Shown piece after piece: positions 4,834 through 48,765 of a stretch of DNA of 58,514 bases; positions within the stretch are counted from its first letter, which is position 1; each line of letters opens with the position of its first letter. This DNA comes from an uncultured Eubacteriales bacterium (GTDB lineage Bacteria; Bacillota; Clostridia; Christensenellales; CAG-1252): assembly GCA_902797685.1 (NCBI GenBank), contig CADBTQ010000079.1:1-58514 (forward strand), written 5' to 3'. The notes below the pieces were generated by a model, which saw only the letters and a program-made list of their open reading frames with translations, was not told where the DNA came from and ran no database searches. A program made the translations under genes and the position numbers.

Positions 4834-5703
4834 ATGTCAAACGCCATTATCTACGTATTTTCGGGCTCGGGCAACACCAAACGCGTTGCCAAAGAGTTTG
4901 CCCGCCACTTTGAGGCGGACGGAGTGGAGACCACCTTGGTGGATATCAAGAAGGGGCAAAATTATCCTTCCCCCTTGCGCTACGACGTGGTGATCGTCGC
5001 CCACCCCGTGCACGGCTTCAACGCCCCCACCACCGTATTTGATTTTGTCAAACAACTCCCCCAAGGGGACGGACGTTTGGTGTATATCGTGGAGACCTCG
5101 GGCGAGCCGCTCAAACTCAACGACGGCGCGCACCTCGCCGTGCGCAATCGGCTCCGCCGCAAGGGGTACGGTTTCGGCGGGTATCTTAGGTACGTCATGC
5201 CCTACAACATCATCTTCCGTCATTCGGACGGTATGGCGGTGCGCTTGTGGCAAGCCGCCCAAAAGCAGATCTCGTTGGACTACCCCATGATCTTGGCGGG
5301 GGAAGAGTGGAAGACCTTTACCTCTCCTTGGACCAAATTGGTCAATGCGGTGGTGCGCATCGAGCATCCCGCCATGCCCGTGATCGGCAGGGGCTTTAAG
5401 TCCACCGACCAATGTATCGGGTGCGGCAAGTGCGAAAGGATCTGCCCCCAGCAAAACATCGTGATCAAAGACGGTCGTCCCGTTTTCGGCAAAAACTGCG
5501 TGGGCTGCATGGGGTGCGCTTTTTCCTGCCCCAAAGACGCTATCCGAACGGGTATTCTCAACTCGTGGCGGGTCAACGGCGCTTACCCCACCGAGGGCAC
5601 GCCCTGCACCGACGAGGAGATCTGCTCCTACTGGAAGGGGGTATATCGCCGCTACTTCCACGCCATCGAAGACCAAGACGTCCCGCCCGTGATGGACAAA
5701 TAA
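4834..5703 (+). CDS. EFR1 family ferredoxin with flavodoxin domain
   Basis: A 289-aa cytoplasmic electron carrier. The N-terminal flavodoxin-like domain starts with the FMN phosphate loop FSGSGNTKRVAKEF. The C-terminal half holds two [4Fe-4S] motifs, CIGCGKCERICP (about 194-205) and CVGCMGCAFSCP (about 222-233). This matches the EFR1 (EFR1 family ferrodoxin) architecture common in anaerobic Firmicutes. Partners are unknown. It follows the ABC transporter by 9 bp with AAGGAG before the ATG, so the two are probably co-transcribed, though the functional link is unclear. Array A2 begins directly after the stop. Confidence 0.88.
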   Translation: MSNAIIYVFSGSGNTKRVAKEFARHFEADGVETTLVDIKKGQNYPSPLRYDVVIVAHPVHGFNAPTTVFDFVKQLPQGDGRLVYIVETSGEPLKLNDGAHLAVRNRLRRKGYGFGGYLRYVMPYNIIFRHSDGMAVRLWQAAQKQISLDYPMILAGEEWKTFTSPWTKLVNAVVRIEHPAMPVIGRGFKSTDQCIGCGKCERICPQQNIVIKDGRPVFGKNCVGCMGCAFSCPKDAIRTGILNSWRVNGAYPTEGTPCTDEEICSYWKGVYRRYFHAIEDQDVPPVMDK

Positions 5704-6092
5704 TATTTGCTAAAGCAAACGCGAGATATACCCTGTGGGTATGCGATGAAAGGTTTGCTAAAGCAAACGCGATATATACCTACGGTATGCGATATATTTG
5801 CTATGCAAATGCGATATACCGCTAAAGGCGGTGCGATATACGATCGGGCGAGCCCAATCGTGTTGTGGAAACGATAGATGACAAACAAAAGAGTGTTCTT
5901 CCAAGCGGAATGGGGAACACTCTTTTTTATCCATTACATTGGCTTTAGCCAATATCTCGCAAGGCGTAGCCTTATCTCGCATTGCCAAGGGCAATATATC
6001 GCATACCCACAGGGTATATATCGCGTTTGCGTAGCAAACTCATACCGTAGGTATATATCGCGGGGTGGCAAGACTCGTCTTGCCACCCCACT
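5704..6092. repeat. Hairpin array A2 (gcgatat / atatcgc), mirror-organised
   Basis: Left half: gcgatat words separate different hairpins, for example ttgct-aaa-gcaa, tacc-tac-ggta, atttgc-tat-gcaaat, accgc-taaa-gcggt. Centre: a terminator at 5886-5928. Right half: the same word inverted (atatcgc) between hairpins such as ttggc-ttta-gccaa, aaggc-gta-gcctt and ttgcc-aag-ggcaa, ending in a long stem at 6063-6090. Some right-half units are reverse complements of left-half units (the taccgtaggta unit). The array lies exactly between two convergent genes. Confidence 0.85.
5886..5928. terminator. Central terminator of array A2
   Basis: The stem AAAAGAGTGTTC pairs with GAACACTCTTTT across a 16-nt loop and is followed by a T-run on the plus strand, with an A-run before it. 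It can act in both directions between the convergent genes. Confidence 0.75.
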
Positions 6093-7184: not shown

Positions 7185-9239
7185 ATGGACGAAAAGATCT
7201 TGTCATCCGAAAAAGGGTATCTCGCCCGAGTGGAAAAGGTATTGGACGAGGAACTCGCCAAAGCCGACGCTCAAAAGGCGTCGTTGGGCGAGGATCTGGT
7301 CGCCAACCGCAAGGATATTTGGGACAACCTGTCCGACATGGACGACTACGAGCAGTCTTCCCGTCAGACCCAAGCGGAACTAAACAGCGACCGCTACGTC
7401 ATGCTCGCCAAACTGTTGGATCGACTGGGAAGGCAAAAGGACGCCCCCTATTTCGGCAAACTCGATTTCGGCTCTTCCCCCCAAAGTCGTATCAATTTGT
7501 ACTTGGGGCTGGGGCAGATCACCGACAAAGAGGGCAACACCTACGTGGTGGACTGGCGCGCCCCCGTGGCGGATCTGTATTACGACCACAATTTGGGCGA
7601 AGCGTCCTACCGCGCCCCCAAAGGGGAGATCAAATGCACCGTCTTCAACAAGTACCAGTTTGGCATCAAAGGGGGCGAGCTGCAATACGCGGTGGACACG
7701 TCCACCACCATTTTGGACGAGGTGCTCCTCAAGGAACTCAGCAAAAACGCCTCGCCCGTGATGCGTAACATCGTATCCACCATCCAAGCCGAGCAAAACA
7801 AGTTGATCCGCGCCTCGTTCGGGAGCGATCTTTTGGTGCAAGGTGTGGCGGGCAGCGGCAAAACGAGCATCGCTTTGCACCGCATCGCCTACATCCTCTA
7901 CCACAGCCGCAGTATCATCAAGCCCAAAGAGATTTGGATCGTCACCCCCAACAAGGCGTTTACCGCCTATATCGGCAACGTATTGCCCGAGTTGGGCGAG
8001 GAGATGGTGCCCCAATGCAGCATGGAAGAGTTGGCGGATCTGGAACTCAAAAAGGTGTGCGCGCGCGTTTCGCGCGAGGAACACTTGGAGAGGCTGTACA
8101 GCCAAGAGCCCTCGCCCGAGCGGGTAAAGAGTATGCAATACAAGTCGAGCGTGCAATTCGCCAAGGATATCGCCCGCTTTGCCCGCCGCGCCGATCAAGC
8201 GAGTTTTCGTCCCCGCGACGTGGTGGCGGGAGGCTACGTCTGTCCCAAAGGCACCTTGGAAGTGCTGTATTACCAACGCTTTGCCCACTACCCCGCCCAC
8301 GAGCGCATCGAATTGATCGCCGGGTACGTGGAGAGGGAATTGGCGGACTTTTTCCACGCCAAAGTCCCCTCGACTTTGCATTTCAAGATCCAAGAGATGG
8401 TGGGGAGTATGTACACCCGCTACGATATCTTTTCCCTCTATCGCCGTATGCTCAGGGAACTTGCCGAAAAGGGCGCGCCCGTACTGTTGCCCGACAAACA
8501 GATCGCTTTGGAAAAGGGATTTGCGGGGCAACCTCTCCCCTACGAGGACGTGTACGGATTGGCTCTACTCAAGACCTTGGTCGAAGGGAGCAAACTCGCC
8601 CGCAAAAACAAGGTCAAACACCTCGTGGTGGACGAAATGCAGGACTATACCCCGGTGCAATACGCCTACCTCAACCAACTGTTCCACTGTCCCAAGACGG
8701 TGTTGGGCGACATGGGACAAATGGCGGATCCCTACCTCAACGCGGGCACGTTGGACACCATCAAGAGTTATCTCGGCGAGGACTGCAGGGTGGAAAAACT
8801 GCCCACGTCCTACCGCTCGAGCTACGAGATCACCATGTTTGCCAACCGCTACGCCGAGGAGAGGATACTCCCCATCGACCGCCACGGCGAGGAGCCTTTG
8901 GTCAAGACCGTCGTTGGAGACGAGGTCGCCGAGATCCAAGCCCAGATCGACTACGCCTACGCCCACGGTTTGGAGAGCGTGGCGGTGATCTGCCGCGATC
9001 AGCAAGAGGCGCGCAAGGTGGCGGCGGCGCTTCAAGGCAAAGCCTTGCTGCTGTTGGACGGCAACACCCCCTATCGCGGGGGCACGGTGGTGACCACCGC
9101 CTTCCACGTCAAAGGCTTTGAGTTCGACCAAGTGATCCTTCCCCAAGCGGACGACGAGCATTACGCCGGCAAATGGGGCAAGCAACTGTTGTACATCAGC
9201 TGCACGAGAGCGCTGCACAGACTGGTACTGTTGAGATAG
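7185..9239 (+). CDS. helD: HelD-like RNA polymerase recycling helicase
   Basis: A 684-aa UvrD/Rep-type ATPase of the HelD group, which in Firmicutes binds RNA polymerase and frees stalled complexes. The N-terminus is a charged coiled coil (about 1-75) as expected for HelD, followed by the VDWRAPVADLYYD segment. Walker A GVAGSGKTSIALHR lies near residue 222, the Walker B/DExx equivalent VVDEMQDYTPVQ near 482, and the late helicase motif GFEFDQVILPQ near 645. It is slightly shorter than B. subtilis HelD. AAGGAG overlaps the end of the CitG-like gene, so translation is likely coupled. Array A3 follows. Confidence 0.85.
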   Translation: MDEKILSSEKGYLARVEKVLDEELAKADAQKASLGEDLVANRKDIWDNLSDMDDYEQSSRQTQAELNSDRYVMLAKLLDRLGRQKDAPYFGKLDFGSSPQSRINLYLGLGQITDKEGNTYVVDWRAPVADLYYDHNLGEASYRAPKGEIKCTVFNKYQFGIKGGELQYAVDTSTTILDEVLLKELSKNASPVMRNIVSTIQAEQNKLIRASFGSDLLVQGVAGSGKTSIALHRIAYILYHSRSIIKPKEIWIVTPNKAFTAYIGNVLPELGEEMVPQCSMEELADLELKKVCARVSREEHLERLYSQEPSPERVKSMQYKSSVQFAKDIARFARRADQASFRPRDVVAGGYVCPKGTLEVLYYQRFAHYPAHERIELIAGYVERELADFFHAKVPSTLHFKIQEMVGSMYTRYDIFSLYRRMLRELAEKGAPVLLPDKQIALEKGFAGQPLPYEDVYGLALLKTLVEGSKLARKNKVKHLVVDEMQDYTPVQYAYLNQLFHCPKTVLGDMGQMADPYLNAGTLDTIKSYLGEDCRVEKLPTSYRSSYEITMFANRYAEERILPIDRHGEEPLVKTVVGDEVAEIQAQIDYAYAHGLESVAVICRDQQEARKVAAALQGKALLLLDGNTPYRGGTVVTTAFHVKGFEFDQVILPQADDEHYAGKWGKQLLYISCTRALHRLVLLR

Positions 9240-9400
9240 CCGCGCTATCTCAAGCGATATAATTCCCAAAGGGATTTGCGATATACTTTCGCGAGGGTCT
9301 CCCCTTCGCGAAAGTGCGATATGCCGTCTCGGCGCGATATATCCCTTGCGGGATACCCAACGAGGTCAGATCGTTTTACCGGGGTTATTTGACGCGATAT
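9240..9400. repeat. Hairpin array A3 (gcgatat), half array
   Basis: Units separated by gcgatat words: attccc-aaa-gggat, a long actttcgcgagggtctccccttcgcgaaagt stem, gccg-tctc-ggc, and atccc-ttgc-gggat. It follows helD and leads to a terminator. Only the left orientation is present, so it looks like a one-sided version of A2 and A7. Confidence 0.75.
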
Positions 9401-10139: not shown

Positions 10140-10262
10140 GGCGGCGTTTCCCTCAAAGAAACGCCGCGGCGATATCAAGCCCCAAGGGGCTTCGCGATAT
10201 AACACAGCCCTCTTTCGACAAGAGGGCTGTTTTGCGATATATTCGGCGAGCCGAATGCGCAA
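10140..10262. repeat. Hairpin array A4 (gcgatat)
   Basis: Four stems separated by gcgatat: ggcggcgttt-ccctcaaag-aaacgccg, aagcccc-a-aggggctt, acagccctctt-tcgac-aagagggctgt and attcgg-cga-gccgaat. It lies beyond the end of the minus-strand ferredoxin gene. Here the word runs opposite to the direction of that transcript, an exception to the pattern in A2, A3 and A7. Confidence 0.7.
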
Positions 10263-16393: not shown

Positions 16394-16905
16394 TGATGTT
16401 GCGCCAAAGGCACAATGATGTTTGCGCTCAGCGCAAATGATGCGCCGCCTGAAAGCGGCATGATGCGTGCTACCGCACGTGAACGGTGCTATGCACGGCA
16501 AGCCGTGATGATATGCGGTCCAGAGGGACCGATGATATACACGATTTGCAATCGTGATGACATGCACCGCCAAGCGGTGATATCGGAAGGCGCCGCTTGC
16601 GCCTTTTAGATGGTGTAGTATACAAAACACAATAGGTTGCCCCGAAATTTCTCGCGTGGGCTAAGCTATCGAGAGATATATCATATCACGACGTGATATA
16701 TCATATTGACGCAAAAAGGATGCGCCGATTTCACCCGCCGCAGGCGGATCTATTCGGTTTCCACAACGTTGCCCGCATCGTCTTGGATGCGGGCAACATA
16801 TCACTTGCGAGTAAGGCGAGCAAATATCACTCTGCCGTCAGGCAGAATATCACACGCCTTTGGCGTATATCACCGCGCTTAGCGCTTGCGCGAAGCGCTA
16901 CATTT
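16394..16905. repeat. Hairpin array A5 with scaffold copy
   Basis: Left part (to about 16580): words of the type aatgatg, then gatgatat, separate stems such as ttgcgc-tca-gcgcaa, gccgc-ctgaaa-gcggc, gcggtcc-aga-gggaccg and acgat-ttgc-aatcgt. Positions 16526-16647 repeat 1-121. The right part (about 16675-16905) carries inverted words (atatcac) between cttgc-gagtaag-gcgag, ctgcc-gtca-ggcag, acgcc-tttg-gcgt and agcgctt-gcgcg-aagcgct. About 570 bp without a gene between two plus-strand genes. Confidence 0.8.
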
Positions 16906-18393: not shown

Positions 18394-20139
18394 CTATTCT
18401 TTTTTTGTTGCGAGTAAGGTTCGATAAAAGAGATTGCCGGATAGCATTTCCTCATGGTTGCCTTCCGCGATTATCCTGCCGCCATCCATCACGAGTACCC
18501 TGTCACTGTAAGATAGCGCCGATGGTCTATGTGCGATTTGTAATACAATCATATGTTCGGACAACGACCGAATGAGTTTGAAAATCTCGCTCTCGGTTAA
18601 GATGTCTAAGTGCGAAGAAAACTCATCTAAAATCAACAAATCCGGTTCTTTCATTATTTCTCGAATGATACAAAACCGTTGTTTTTGTCCTCCGGATATA
18701 GTCGTGGCGTCCGTCCCAAGCATGCTATCAATGCCATCGGGAAGTTCGCTTACAAGATTAGTCAAGCCAAATCGGTCGATATAATCCATCATCTTGTCTT
18801 GATTCGCAGCGGTTTTTTCCACGTAATAAAGAAGGTTTTCTTTGATAGTACGGTCAAACAAAAAACCATTTTGTCCTACATATCCTATCTTTCGTCTAAA
18901 TGCCACCAGTCGTTGCCGAGTTGCCGCTTTTTCATTCACCAAAATCCTACCGGAACACGGAACGTAATACCCCATTAATAAATTAACCAAAGTGCTTTTG
19001 CCACAGCCGCTATACCCGGTTATCGCCGTTATTTGACCTACTTGAAGACACAAGTCAAGTTCTTTGATCACGGGAAGAGGTTGTTGATATGAAAACGATA
19101 CTTTCTCCATGGCTATCGTCCGAATTTTCGGCAAAAAGGAAGAATCATCTTCGATGGGCTCTGTGGGAATATTCATAATTTCGACGAGTCGTTCACAACA
19201 TGTTTTGCCATAGCGATAAAGTGGGATGATGTTTTCTGCGGCAGCGGTGTTAATGTTTAATAACCCGTAAATACTCATCATCATCGCAAAGCCACCCACC
19301 GCAAGTTTATTGTTTGCAATAAGAACAGCGCTTAGGGTGATAATGCTTAAATACCCAATCTGTCGGCAAATAATCCCCGTTGACCGTTGCGCATAGCTCC
19401 ACATATTTTTTTTGAGCAGTAGTCTTAATCCATCGCCCACGAGGCAACCCGTCCGTAGTTGCTCGGATTTATAGGAGTTGGCGTTTTTTACAATCTTCAC
19501 ACCCGCAATTACATTGGTCAAATCGCTTCTCAATCTCGCATACGCCTCGTTCCAGTTGTGAAAAACGGCGGTCAAAGGCAGTTTCATGGAAATGATGTAA
19601 TCTAACACAATAAAACTCATTGCCGCCAACATGACAATATAGCTTGCGGTTGCCATTAAAGCAAGCAATCCAACACAGATAAGCAAGCTGATAATGCCGT
19701 CGATCCAATAATAGTCAATTACGCCATCTATACTCATCGGCTCATCTAAGATTCGAGAAACGAAGTATGAGGGAGAATGGGCTTCAAATGTGTCTATATT
19801 TGTCTGCGCTATGTGGTTGAGCATAAAGGAAACAATCAATCTGATCACACGATTGCGCTCCCTATACAACAGGTATGTCTTTAAAAACCCCAACGCAATA
19901 CGGACAGCAAAGAGAACTAAAACAACGGCTATCCAATAATAGCGTCCTGCTAAAATGCCACGGGAAGCACAATCAATTATATCAGACAAAATAAGCGGCT
20001 CTATTATTGTCAGTACCGCAATCGCAACGCATAGCGACGCAAATAGTACATCTCCCCAAAAACGGCGAGGAATCAATGCACGAATTTGCTTAACGGCGTT
20101 GGTTGACGTTCCCTCATTTTTCTTCGATAATAATGTCAT
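18394..20139 (-). CDS. ABC exporter of RiPP system 2
   Basis: A 581-aa fused permease and ATPase. The N-terminal half has about six membrane helices (about 35-320). The ATPase has Walker A GYSGCGKST near residue 383, signature TISGGQKQRF and Walker B LLILDEFSSHLD. There is no N-terminal C39 peptidase domain, so leader removal would need another protease. It is the last gene of the operon and overlaps the PqqD-like gene by 26 nt. AT-rich, in contrast to the GC-rich genes on both sides. It probably secretes the modified peptide or gives self-protection. Confidence 0.85.
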   Translation of the reverse strand: MTLLSKKNEGTSTNAVKQIRALIPRRFWGDVLFASLCVAIAVLTIIEPLILSDIIDCASRGILAGRYYWIAVVLVLFAVRIALGFLKTYLLYRERNRVIRLIVSFMLNHIAQTNIDTFEAHSPSYFVSRILDEPMSIDGVIDYYWIDGIISLLICVGLLALMATASYIVMLAAMSFIVLDYIISMKLPLTAVFHNWNEAYARLRSDLTNVIAGVKIVKNANSYKSEQLRTGCLVGDGLRLLLKKNMWSYAQRSTGIICRQIGYLSIITLSAVLIANNKLAVGGFAMMMSIYGLLNINTAAAENIIPLYRYGKTCCERLVEIMNIPTEPIEDDSSFLPKIRTIAMEKVSFSYQQPLPVIKELDLCLQVGQITAITGYSGCGKSTLVNLLMGYYVPCSGRILVNEKAATRQRLVAFRRKIGYVGQNGFLFDRTIKENLLYYVEKTAANQDKMMDYIDRFGLTNLVSELPDGIDSMLGTDATTISGGQKQRFCIIREIMKEPDLLILDEFSSHLDILTESEIFKLIRSLSEHMIVLQIAHRPSALSYSDRVLVMDGGRIIAEGNHEEMLSGNLFYRTLLATKKE

Positions 20140-20380
20140 GTTTGATCAATTCATCTATAAAGTTTTTTACATCATCTATAATGATTTCGGGAGTAACGTT
20201 GGTTTCCCGCGCTAAGACTTCCGTGAGCCGCTCCACAGAATCATATTTAATAACATTTTGAACAATCCACTGCCCGGTAGAGTTCAATAATATGATATGC
20301 GGTTTCTTTTCATTGCGGCGAGAAAGCACAATCTCTCCCTGCACATTGTTTACTATAATATTCGTGTTATATTTGAACAT
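20114..20380 (-). CDS. PqqD-like RiPP recognition protein
   Basis: An 88-aa protein with the layout of a PqqD-type RiPP recognition element: an N-terminal three-stranded sheet (VNNVQGEIVLSRRNEKKPHIILLNSTGQWIV) followed by helices ending ELIKHDIIIEEK. Such domains bind the precursor leader and bring it to the maturase. It lies 3 bp after the SPASM gene and overlaps the exporter. Identification is from fold-like sequence pattern and context. Confidence 0.75.
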   Translation of the reverse strand: MFKYNTNIIVNNVQGEIVLSRRNEKKPHIILLNSTGQWIVQNVIKYDSVERLTEVLARETNVTPEIIIDDVKNFIDELIKHDIIIEEK

Positions 20381-20383
20381 TTG

Positions 20384-21412
20384 TTATTCACCTAAAAGCG
20401 TTCGTAGGGTGTTATGAAACACACACTCTGGTATTGGCTTTTCGTTATAGCCATAATATTCCATAATCAACGTTGGCGCGCAAAGTCCACAGTGTGTATA
20501 ATTTTCACATTTACTACACGCTGTTTTAACTTCAATATATCGTAACCTTTGCTCATATAGTTTTGCCCATGCCACATCGAAATCACTTGTGAGAATATTG
20601 TAGCGTTCACCAGGAATGCTGTCACAAAGAAAACAATTGCCGTAGGGATCAACTGATAAATTGGTCAGTCCTGCATTGCAACTAGTAAATCCAACAACTC
20701 TATCATATTTGTTCAATAATTCTTTTTGAAACAATACTTTTCGTTCCGCTTCCGGTTGGACGTTGATTAGTTCACTCGGTGACAATTGTAAAGTCTGCGG
20801 AGATTTGTCACCATTAGTATAGGCGCGCATTCGGTAATACTGAGCAAACCCACAACCTTCTTGTTTTGCAAGGGAATATGCTCCGCGTAATTCATGAGCA
20901 TTATATTTGTTAGAAATAAACGTGATGGTTACATTGACGTCCTTCTTTCTTAACATCTTAATAGCCTTTAATACCGCACTAAAAGCAACTGCATTCCTGC
21001 AAAAGGTATCATATGTTTCCTGGGACATCCCATATAGCGTAATGTTTATTTTTTCAGGTTTTTTCTGACTAAACACTTTTATGATGTTTGGTCCAATTAG
21101 ACTACCATTGCTCATGATCGTAATCTTGTAACCCAAATCATAGGCGTAAAGATATAACTCAGTAAAATATGGACAACAAAAAACTTCTCCACCGGTAAAA
21201 GCAAGAAACATGCAACCTTTCTCTCTCAACAAAGATAAAACGTATTTCCATTCATTTAAAGAAAGGCCGGGTATTTTTTGCCCTTTTAATGGTGTTTCAT
21301 AACAGTGTAAGCATAAAAAATTACATCTGTACGTTAACTGTATGACAGCACGTATTGGTATATGCTTGGATTTTATGTAGGAACTAAAACTTTCTTTAAG
21401 ACTATTGCTCAT
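20384..21412 (-). CDS. Radical SAM/SPASM maturase of RiPP system 2
   Basis: A 342-aa radical SAM enzyme with C30-x3-C34-x2-C37 (CNFLCLHC) and GGEVFCCPYF. The C-terminal SPASM region has SCNAGLTNLSVDPYGNCFLC and CSKCENYTHCGLCAP, then C near PECVFH. It would crosslink or otherwise modify the 34-aa peptide encoded just upstream. There is no strong ribosome binding site before the ATG, so translation may depend on the preceding short gene. AT-rich. Confidence 0.85.
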   Translation of the reverse strand: MSNSLKESFSSYIKSKHIPIRAVIQLTYRCNFLCLHCYETPLKGQKIPGLSLNEWKYVLSLLREKGCMFLAFTGGEVFCCPYFTELYLYAYDLGYKITIMSNGSLIGPNIIKVFSQKKPEKINITLYGMSQETYDTFCRNAVAFSAVLKAIKMLRKKDVNVTITFISNKYNAHELRGAYSLAKQEGCGFAQYYRMRAYTNGDKSPQTLQLSPSELINVQPEAERKVLFQKELLNKYDRVVGFTSCNAGLTNLSVDPYGNCFLCDSIPGERYNILTSDFDVAWAKLYEQRLRYIEVKTACSKCENYTHCGLCAPTLIMEYYGYNEKPIPECVFHNTLRTLLGE

Positions 21413-21441
21413 TTGGAACTTGATAGTATGAAGGCGTTAAT

Positions 21442-21546
21442 TTAGCCTGTTACGTTGTATGGATTAGAATCGCTAGTTGTACAGGCGCACATCAAATCAA
21501 TACTATCCACATCTATTTCTTCCATTATAGGAACTTCATAATTCAC
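21442..21546 (-). CDS. Candidate RiPP precursor peptide, 34 aa
   Basis: A short ORF between the two radical SAM genes. It starts at GTG, which overlaps the stop of the upstream radical SAM gene, and has GGAGG seven bases upstream, an ideal spacing. The N-terminal part is acidic and hydrophobic (VPIMEEIDVDSIDLM), like a leader; the C-terminus is CACTTSDSNPYNVTG with a C-A-C pair, several Thr/Ser, Asn and one Tyr. There is no double-Gly site. Position, size, acidic leader and polar Cys/Thr/Asn core fit a radical-SAM-modified peptide such as a thioether- or C-C-crosslinked product. It is not similar to any peptide I can name. Confidence 0.7.
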   Translation of the reverse strand: MNYEVPIMEEIDVDSIDLMCACTTSDSNPYNVTG

Positions 21547-22400
21547 GGATCTTCCTCCTTTTTCATACTATCAAGTTCTTTTGCGTGCGTTATGCATTCA
21601 GCACAAAGTGTCGAGCCTTCGCGATTAGAGACACTAGGTAAATATGAGCATATCTCATTGTGGATGATATTGTCAGTTAGCCCATTAATGCTAGTAGTAA
21701 GTATGTTGCCTAATTGATAGGGTTTATACTCATAAACAATCGGTGGACCACAACATATAAAGCACTCGCCATCATATCGAACACATAGATTGCCGGCATT
21801 GTTGCATAATTTAGATTGCTGGACCAAGGAACTAATTTCAATCCCATTAATCTTTGCGCTTCCAAAGGGCGATACTGGTCTTAGTTTAATATCAATTCTA
21901 TCTTGAAACATTTTACGCAAACGAGAAACGGTTGCAAATTGTTTATTGTTTTTATCAAAACTGACAATAACTTTGACTTGAAGACACAAAGAAAGTGCTT
22001 CTTTTATAAGAGGGATGACGGACTGATCAAGAGAGATAAAGTGCTGATGATAAGAATCGGTGCTGATTATTAATGTATCAAAGTTGTTATCGCGCAATGC
22101 CGTTAATCGCTCTGATACGTCTATATCCGAGCCCCAAAAGCCGTTTGTGCACAAGGAGAACTTAATATTATCATCATAATTGAGTTCTTGTAAACTTGAT
22201 ATCAAACTAGTAAAATGGCACATGGGCTCTCCGCCGCTGAAAACAATCCTATGAATATGGCTATACGCCGCATACTGCAACGCAAGCGAACAAATATTTG
22301 TTGGCATTATCCTAATTCCAACTTTTTTTAGCGGCGAAATAAAGCAATGAGGACACTCTGCATTGCAATCATTAGTATAGAACAGAATAATTTCTCTCAT
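21543..22400 (-). CDS. Radical SAM enzyme of RiPP system 2
   Basis: A 285-aa radical SAM protein with C12-x3-C16-x2-C19 (CNAECPHC) and FSGGEPMCH. The C-terminus contains a shorter cysteine set (YDGECFICCGPP, LCAECITHA) that could hold an auxiliary cluster. It is the first gene of the AT-rich operon, preceded by its own promoter with almost no leader and no clear ribosome binding site. Its stop overlaps the precursor start. Two distinct radical SAM enzymes in one operon imply at least two modifications. Confidence 0.82.
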   Translation of the reverse strand: MREIILFYTNDCNAECPHCFISPLKKVGIRIMPTNICSLALQYAAYSHIHRIVFSGGEPMCHFTSLISSLQELNYDDNIKFSLCTNGFWGSDIDVSERLTALRDNNFDTLIISTDSYHQHFISLDQSVIPLIKEALSLCLQVKVIVSFDKNNKQFATVSRLRKMFQDRIDIKLRPVSPFGSAKINGIEISSLVQQSKLCNNAGNLCVRYDGECFICCGPPIVYEYKPYQLGNILTTSINGLTDNIIHNEICSYLPSVSNREGSTLCAECITHAKELDSMKKEEDP

Positions 22401-26091: not shown

Positions 26092-26400
26092 GATAGGCTC
26101 ACGCCTATGATATAGACCCATGGTCAATGATATATCGGCTCTACCGATATGATATACGACCCGTGGTCGTATGGCGGATACTCAAATAGACCACCTCTTT
26201 CCCCTCAAGGGGAACGCTGTCATCGTTACAAATCAATCAAATATTCACCACAATATCCCTCGATGGACGAGTCCTCGAGGGATATATCCTTTTCGAGCCC
26301 CGCTCGAACAGATCATAACGCAGTGCGGTATATCATAGGCAACGCCTATCTCATTGCGCGGTAGCGCATTGCGCCGTTCCGTTCGGCAAATGTGAAATTG
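26092..26400. repeat. Hairpin array A6 (atgatata / atatcata)
   Basis: The left side has stems ataggc-tcac-gcctat, tcggc-tcta-ccgat and atacgac-ccgtg-gtcgtat separated by atgatata. The centre has cctc-gatggacgagtc-ctcgaggg and ctttcgag-ccccg-ctcga. The right side has inverted words between cgca-gtgc-ggt, ataggc-aac-gcctat and gcgc-ggta-gcgc. It occupies the gap between the GlfT2-like gene and the hydrogenase promoter; no gene is seen. Confidence 0.7.
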
Positions 26401-34729: not shown

Positions 34730-34732
34730 CGC

Positions 34733-35015
34733 CTTGTAGCCAAGGCGACAAACGCAGTGATATTCATGCTGCGCATGAGTTATATTTATCCTTGCAGGAT
34801 AAGTGATATTCACGCTACCGCGTGAGTGATATTTGCGCCAATGGCGCAAGTTGAGGTTAAAAAAGATGGTTTGGGTACAAAACCTTGTTAAGTACCCCAA
34901 CCATCTGTTTTTTTACCATAACTTGCCGGTAAGGCAAATATCACTCGCACCCCGTGCGAATATCACTTTGCGTTAGCAAAATATAACTCACGCATAGCGT
35001 GAATATAACTCCGCA
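34733..35015. repeat. Hairpin array A7 (agtgatatt / aatatcact), mirror-organised
   Basis: Left units: tcatgc-tgc-gcatga, ttatcc-ttgca-ggataa, tcacgc-tacc-gcgtga, ttgcgcc-aat-ggcgcaa, separated by agtgatatt (one variant agttatatt). Centre: a terminator at 34860-34914. Right units: ttgcc-ggta-aggcaa, tcgcac-ccc-gtgcga, tttgc-gtta-gcaaa, tcacgc-ata-gcgtga, separated by the inverted word aatatcact (later aatataact). It lies exactly between the convergent metQ and the 70-aa gene. The cleanest example of the family here. Confidence 0.9.
34860..34914. terminator. Central terminator of array A7
   Basis: AGATGGTTTGGGTAC pairs with GTACCCCAACCATCT with one mismatch, with an A-run before and a T-run after. 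Confidence 0.8.
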
Positions 35016-35026
35016 CGTCGGGCGGC

Positions 35027-44283: not shown

Positions 44284-44445
44284 AAGGAGACTCGACGAAG
44301 GAGCGTCGACGGAATAGGCGGGACGAAATAAGGGGCACTGCCATTTGTTAGTGGTGTGCCCGCCGTCTAGGGCGACCCGGGTCGCCGGTGAGAAGACGGA
44401 CACAGCGAAGGGCTCCGCCACTGGTGGCCGGATGAGCCTTGCGCT
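44284..44445. repeat. 162-bp direct repeat, copy 1
   Basis: Nearly identical to 44937-45098: three mismatches and no gap by my reading. It begins aaggagactcgacgaaggag, includes the stem gtctagggcgacc-cg-ggtcgccgg, and ends with ccactggtggccgga and gatgagccttgcgct. The first part, reversed, recurs before the tRNA-Pro end copy at about 13253-13288. ORFs across both copies share a protein-like string only because the DNA is repeated. Confidence 0.85.
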
Positions 44446-44665
44446 CTATCACGCGAATGCGTGCATATCATCAACACGGCGTGAAACAAAGTGTTGCATA
44501 TCATCAGTGTCGAAGACGCTGTATATCATCAAACCGAAGCGGATTGTTTATACACGGCTATCGCCGTGATGATATACAGGCGTAAACGCCCGATGATATA
44601 CAAGCGCAACGCGCTTGATGATATACAAAGGCTTGCAGCCTTTGATGATATGCCAAACCTCACTT
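44446..44665. repeat. Hairpin array A9 (catatcatc / gatgatata)
   Basis: The left words are catatcatc or tatatcatc around stems such as cacg-gcgtg-like and agtgtc-ga-agacgct. The right words are gatgatata around ggcg-taaa-cgcc, aagcgc-aac-gcgctt, aaaggc-ttgca-gccttt and ccaaacc-tcacttcgcttc-ggtttgg. Unlike A2, A5 and A7, the words point outward here. Confidence 0.7.
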
Positions 44666-48400: not shown

Positions 48401-48765
48401 AGTGATATTTTTGCAAAAGCAAGAGTGATATTCTGCCCTTGGGCAGAGTTATATTCCGTCCGATGACGGAGTGATATTCGCTCCGCGAGTTGGCTTCGCT
48501 TTGCTCCGCATGGAAGGCTCCGCTATCGTCTTGTAGATGGTATATAGCGCTTTGCACAATAGGATGCCCCGAGGTTACGGGGCGTTTTTTTGAAGTATGC
48601 AAAACAAAAAACCTCACATCGTGCGGCTCGCAACTTTCTTTGCGGCTCGCAAAGAAAACATCACTATCGGCACAAGCCGATAACATCATGCCGTCCTCGG
48701 ACGGTGCATCATTTGGCAAAGCCAAACATCATTTCGCCATCAGGCGAAACATCGCTTGCGAGCAC
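48401..48765. repeat. Hairpin array A10 with a diverged scaffold
   Basis: The left part has agtgatatt words with ttgc-aaaa-gcaa, ctgccc-ttg-ggcag and ccgtc-cgat-gacgg. The scaffold (about 48510-48660) parallels A1: ggaaggc...agatgg...cacaataggntgcccc, with a different inner stem, then aactttctttgc and a new stem. The right part has catcac/catcat words with tatcggc-aca-agccgata, gccgtcc-tc-ggacggt, ttggc-aaa-gccaa, ttcgcc-atca-ggcgaa. It lies between convergent genes. Confidence 0.8.

Follow-up and report, generated by a model that had tools for sequence, protein, structure and literature searches.

Intergenic arrays of mini-hairpins joined by the constant word GATAT recur throughout the genome of an uncultured Eubacteriales bacterium, and they probably constitute a dispersed mosaic family of tagged mini-hairpin units that resembles REPs and BIMEs and that acts or spreads as hairpin DNA. 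The window analysed here covers 58,514 nucleotides, counted from the first base of contig C79 in this genome (G000; 1.78 Mb, 98%-complete). An earlier note on the window had listed eight such arrays, all of which were found where it had placed them when the sequence was read; a ninth, at about 44430-44660, was absent from that note. With these arrays, tagged palindromic repeats are also seen in a major group of gut bacteria, in a form that keeps the structure and not the stem sequence. Their loops bear a signature that points to the DNA form of the hairpin as the one that matters. The arrays could lead to a new structure-specific DNA enzyme, and they warn against taking every hairpin with compensated stems at a gene end for an RNA element.

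Anatomy of the units and elements

Each unit consists of the GATAT word and a perfect stem of 4-8 bp with arbitrary sequence, capped by a C-G-closed loop of mostly 3-4 nt. A 422 kb sample of the window genome, made of stretches picked around matches, contained 157 GATAT-hairpin-GATAT units, against 1-13 for each control word without overlap with the motif. The word also emerged de novo from this sample, with no word chosen beforehand: TATAT, GATAT, AGTGA and TGATA were the 5-mers that most often had a hairpin within 0-3 nt, and a hairpin followed them in 14-15% of cases compared with 3.8% overall. The genome and its relatives were searched for GATAT-separated hairpins, as the earlier note had proposed; the pattern GATATN{13,27}GATATN{13,27}GATAT gave 136 matches genome-wide in G000 and its reversed control none, and the plan was also present in other orders of Clostridia. 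The constant word is therefore real, but its description needed correction, as it falls into at least five classes: GCGATATA, AGTGATATT, TATGATATA, GATGATATRCA and TCGATAT, the last of which was found in other genomes than that of the window. Dozens of different stems coexist within one genome.

All units of an arm share one orientation and reversal takes place only at the core, with the arms normally pointing inward (>>> core <<<). Inward junctions outnumbered outward ones by 35 to 2 in five genomes, which agrees with the earlier description of a word that is inverted beyond a central block. The GATGATAT class is the exception, being mostly outward (5:1), for example at 44465-44651. Both arms had the same word class in 24 of 30 classed pairs; there are also many single-arm arrays (e.g. 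in genome G290), and the arms of composite elements carry differing words. The central block reads as a terminator in some elements and not in others: a GC-rich hairpin with a T run behind it is seen at 5885-5932, about 34863-34908 and 102-135 and is missing from other cores. The likeness to intrinsic or bidirectional terminators lies in the many cores that contain one; the terminator is confined to the core, and the arms are separate from it and were also found without any terminator.

A complete element of the GCGATATA class fills the convergent gap at 5704-6092; its first base adjoins the stop codon of the gene to its left (4834-5703), and inward hairpin arms flank a terminator core. Its left arm (5706-5846, plus strand) has GCGATATA/GCGAGATAT words between hairpins at 5706-5719, 5728-5742, 5753-5768, 5776-5788, 5796-5810 and 5818-5832. 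The core (5885-5932), as read from the sequence, contains a bidirectional terminator-like hairpin (AAAAGAGTGTTC...GAACACTCTTTTTT), and the right arm (5938-6089, minus strand) carries the inverted words TATATCGC/TATCTCGC, with hairpins at 5938-5953, 5961-5973, 5981-5995, 6003-6017, 6025-6039, 6042-6054 and 6062-6089. A AGTGATATT-class element fills another convergent gap, after a metQ-like gene (34733-35015), and is 72% identical over 273 nt to its own reverse complement. This and other whole elements can fold into a tree whose trunk is made of paired words and whose branches are the hairpins. Compared with shuffles, z was -15.1 for 5704-6092 as RNA and, for 34730-35020, -11.5 as DNA and -14.0 as RNA.

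Directly after the stop codon of a helicase-like gene (7185-9239) lies a GCGATATA-class array on the plus strand (9240-9400). Another array of this class (10140-10262, plus strand), with the hairpins AAGCCC, ACAGCCCTCTT and ATTCGG, has about 76-81% identity to several genomic copies. The element at 26092-26400 belongs to the TATGATATA class, of which eight aligned members keep their stems and vary freely in their loops. Composite elements are found at 1-300, where the contig start truncates a GATGATAT left arm that is followed by a terminator core and an ATCATT/ATCACT right arm; at 48401-48765, with a AGTGATATT left arm, a terminator core and a AACATCAT-type right arm; and at 16394-16905, 3' of the stop of a radical-SAM gene, where the right arm of the mosaic matches locus L090 (504-653) with 96% identity along 150 nt. 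Nearby, the minus strand at 18394-22400 encodes an ABC transporter and two radical-SAM genes with a codon usage that the genome-trained gene finder missed; this cluster looks horizontally acquired and is possibly a peptide-modification cluster. The ninth array (44430-44660) is of the GATGATATRCA class and outward (<<>>>), and it resembles copies in further genera of the family. There too the words point outward, and this layout may represent a separate element family.

Copying, distribution and placement

Nearly every sampled array resembles others at unlinked loci in the genome, with 70-96% identity, including 87-88% over about 700 nt. Contigs C6, C9 and C52, as well as that of the window, start within elements. 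These alignments indicate that most arrays are dispersed mosaic repeats, related to each other rather than independent inventions. The earlier note had argued for selection on structure rather than simple duplication, and this was half right: the stems are constrained, as seen from compensated changes and divergent loops, but the elements have clearly been copied across the genome. As it had described, stems vary while their pairing is kept. Between copies, 132 double changes preserved Watson-Crick pairing versus 18 that broke it, a count that includes some whole-unit swaps and in which related pairs are non-independent. Aligned copies have, for example, TAGGC/GCCTA versus TAGCC/GGCTA and ACGACC/GGTCGT versus ACGACT/AGTCGT. 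Pairwise divergence in G000, compared over non-independent sequence pairs, was 28-34% in loops, 11-14% at other positions, 5-9% in stems and 3-4.5% in words, which makes loops two to three times as divergent as other positions. Inverted repeats of bacteria in general have more polymorphism in loops than in arms (PMC13155455), so this feature alone is not special to the GATAT arrays.

The number of triple-pattern matches varied strongly within the genus, with 136 (G000), 0 (G001), 5 (G002), 24, 10 and 13 in genomes that differ in completeness. Such a spread is what a mobile repeat would show, and not what a core part of the chromosome would. The plan is abundant in G047, from the same order, and in G234, G292, G290, G417 and G222, from other orders of the class, in each case with few or no control matches; AT-rich genomes had high counts for pattern and control alike, which is background. 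Judged by these matches, the distribution across Clostridia is patchy and covers several orders. One of these genomes contains a long one-directional tandem array (G290, contig C68, 3265-3575) that shows growth through the duplication of whole blocks of hairpins.

The arrays of the window genome are intergenic and strongly concentrated at gene 3' ends. Based on crude codon-usage gene calls, by which single placement cases are uncertain, gaps of 100 nt or more in G000 contained an array in 16 of 27 convergent cases, 10 of 67 tandem cases and 2 of 39 divergent cases (chi-square p 2e-7), and the arrays often began at a stop codon. This bias was weak and not significant in G047 (p 0.28). No arrays were found downstream of the helicase homologue in relatives of the genus (47-58% protein identity), nor downstream of five MetQ relatives. 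Different hairpin repeats follow the metQ homologue in relatives (GTCATTTCGACC...GAGAAATC and CATTCTGAG...GAAGGATC; L111 900-1150, L112 4580-4900), and other tagged hairpin families thus seem present in related Clostridia.

Hairpins as DNA or as RNA

It is apparently as DNA, and not as messenger RNA, that the hairpins matter. The strand of the word sets the polarity of the loop (150:29, p 7e-21), and the same is true of each word class and of five genomes taken one by one. Among C-G-closed loops, C(TNC)G made up 59 of 156 triloops (38%) and C(TNNC)G 45 of 74 tetraloops (61%), compared with 8% in both cases for control hairpins of the same genomes (Fisher 1e-18 and 2e-23, respectively). On the ATATC strand the complements of these loops are cGNAg and cGNNAg. 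The cGNNAg loops form an extra-stable class of DNA mini-hairpins. GNA loops likewise give extraordinarily stable DNA mini-hairpins (Yoshizawa 1997, as cited in PMC6479982). Loop energies from ViennaRNA slightly preferred the ATATC strand, to a similar extent with DNA and RNA parameters, and are not decisive between the two; DNA is therefore the probable rather than the established molecule.

DNA-type loops would also be expected if the inverted arms extruded as tree-like cruciforms that absorb supercoiling, or bind gyrase or nucleoid proteins, between convergent genes. The word-word trunk in the folds of whole elements (z -11.5 as DNA), the matching word classes of most paired arms (24 of 30) and the convergent placement in G000 are consistent with such a role in chromosome topology. 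Still, it seems unlikely, given the many one-armed arrays (as in G290), the composite elements with different words in each arm and the near absence of arrays from some congeners.

The earlier note had also considered roles in RNA such as 3'-end protection, with RNA from either side meeting the same words. Hairpins between stop codon and terminator would then protect transcripts or bind an RNA-binding protein, and mirrored arms would serve two convergent genes, which suits the arrays of G000 that start at stop codons and are most frequent in convergent gaps, their strong folding as RNA and the many cores that are terminators. However, three tests argue against selection on mRNA. Firstly, 81 units in tandem gaps were sense and 99 antisense to the genes, and loop polarity (T-first versus A-last) was nearly equal for both, with 62:7 in sense and 71:10 in antisense units; loop polarity therefore goes with the strand of the word, whichever strand is transcribed. 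Secondly, the 1440 stem pairs included 3 G-T, 6 A-C and 11 other mismatches, with the rest being Watson-Crick. RNA stems would tolerate G-U, so the few G-T pairs, which are no better tolerated than A-C, speak against selection on mRNA. Lastly, the loops are neither UNCG nor preferentially GNRA, as T..G tetraloops were 5 of 74 and about 13 of the 44 listed TNNC loops complement to GNRA. Some congeners almost without arrays and the placement in G047 (p 0.28) also disagree with 3'-end elements, and the RNA roles proposed earlier are not supported; we consider them quite improbable. An orientation that follows transcription looked strong at first and was dropped after tandem gaps and other genomes were counted. 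Rfam 15 returned only two tRNAs above gathering score in the window, with no described structured RNA family at the arrays. The strong predicted folding of whole elements as RNA leaves room for an RNA role of an element that is itself transcribed.

Mutation alone, by which hairpin-templated repair and slippage at GATAT words would make and homogenise perfect palindromes with no function or mobility, accords with the perfect stems, hypervariable loops and block-wise tandem duplication in C68 of G290, but is very unlikely to be the explanation as word, inward layout and loop motif are common to several families and orders and as elements of 500-700 nt were copied to unlinked sites.

Related repeats and a possible mechanism

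The earlier note knew of no described family with this plan. This mostly stands, as no GATAT-tagged repeat family was found in the open-licence PMC literature searched, except that REPs tagged with GTAG or CGTC likewise join a tag to a palindrome and are placed alike (PMC3733652); together with BIMEs, they are the closest known systems. Tagged REPs are intergenic, lie near the 3' ends of convergent and tandem genes and reach high copy numbers, and CGTC REPs lack a RAYT (Y1_Tnp) transposase (PMC3733652); the words Firmicutes and Clostridia are absent from the text of that paper on REPs. Like these REPs, GATAT arrays have a short unpaired tag beside a small palindrome, strand polarity and units of opposite orientation that can fold into larger structures (PMC3733652), and they are high in copy number, intergenic, placed at 3' ends and rare between divergent genes (in G000; not significant in G047). 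REPs have the tag GTAG or CGTC at one palindrome end and one conserved stem per family, whereas the tag found de novo here is GATAT with class-specific prefixes and dozens of unrelated stems are mixed per genome. GATAT units also form long arms of one orientation, and the host range differs. Furthermore, no Y1 transposase was found in the window genome, unlike what is expected for RAYT-associated REPs.

Similar to BIMEs, the arrays are dispersed extragenic mosaics of palindromes and short linkers with recombining modules, but BIMEs have one palindrome sequence in alternating orientation, whereas GATAT stems vary from unit to unit and orientation is uniform within an arm. The BOX elements of the Firmicute Streptococcus pneumoniae are mobile mosaic repeats with a modular boxA-boxB-boxC structure and a variable number of internal units. 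By this general description, rather than by sequence, GATAT elements are a comparable modular mosaic, but BOX lacks the plan of constant word and variable hairpin as well as the inward symmetry. MITEs are likewise small, non-coding and dispersed with overall inverted symmetry; they are marked by transposon-derived terminal inverted repeats and target-site duplication, and for the GATAT elements no sharp ends, defined terminal inverted repeat, target duplication or parent transposon were found with distant relatives for comparison.

For a REP/BIME-like family that acts or spreads as hairpin DNA, we infer that the unit takes the form of folded single-stranded DNA when it is recognised or generated, i.e. 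of the ATATC-strand hairpin with cGNAg/cGNNAg loops, so that the stem sequence can drift while its pairing stays perfect. The folded strand may be handled by an endonuclease or recombinase with strand specificity, or it may be copied at replication with the hairpin as template. Such an enzyme or replication-linked copying would see tag and loop and leave the stem free, resulting in perfect stems and free loops. The elements would spread and recombine by exchanging modules at the constant words and would survive where they are harmless, mainly directly 3' of stop codons; the terminator cores in many of them could insulate neighbouring genes. We tentatively suggest, as a possibility that falls somewhat short of even, an undescribed superfamily of Clostridia DNA elements, with machinery that reads tag and loop (GATAT, with cGNAg/cGNNAg opposite), ignores the stem and is not HUH Y1 (RAYT), and that may act via folded single-stranded DNA or tree-like cruciforms.

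Several candidate mobilisers were rejected. The RAYT/Y1 transposase (PF01797) had no match in G000 and G016 and, where present in other genomes, showed no clear correlation with the arrays. Neither an IS110 transposase domain nor a reverse transcriptase domain, as for a retron origin, was found in the 98%-complete G000. Carriage by phages was considered from 80 viral-contig loci with a GCGATATA pair, which gave six hairpin-bearing pairs, a number consistent with chance in a large collection.

Three composite elements of the window have a common core, GAAGGCGCC...TAGATGGTNTRGTATA...CACAATAGGTTGCCCCG (60-140, 16590-16650 and 48530-48590), which may be a binding site or RNA start. Besides GATAT, composite elements have (G)GTGAAATC as another constant word that separates hairpins in the same manner (L107 15000-15130, L097 8960-9060 and L104 1370-1470). 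Lastly, TTGTGGA(N), which is like part of a DnaA box, occurs in element cores of different genomes (window 5856-5866, L106 13158-13170, L107 15183-15194 and G047 elements).
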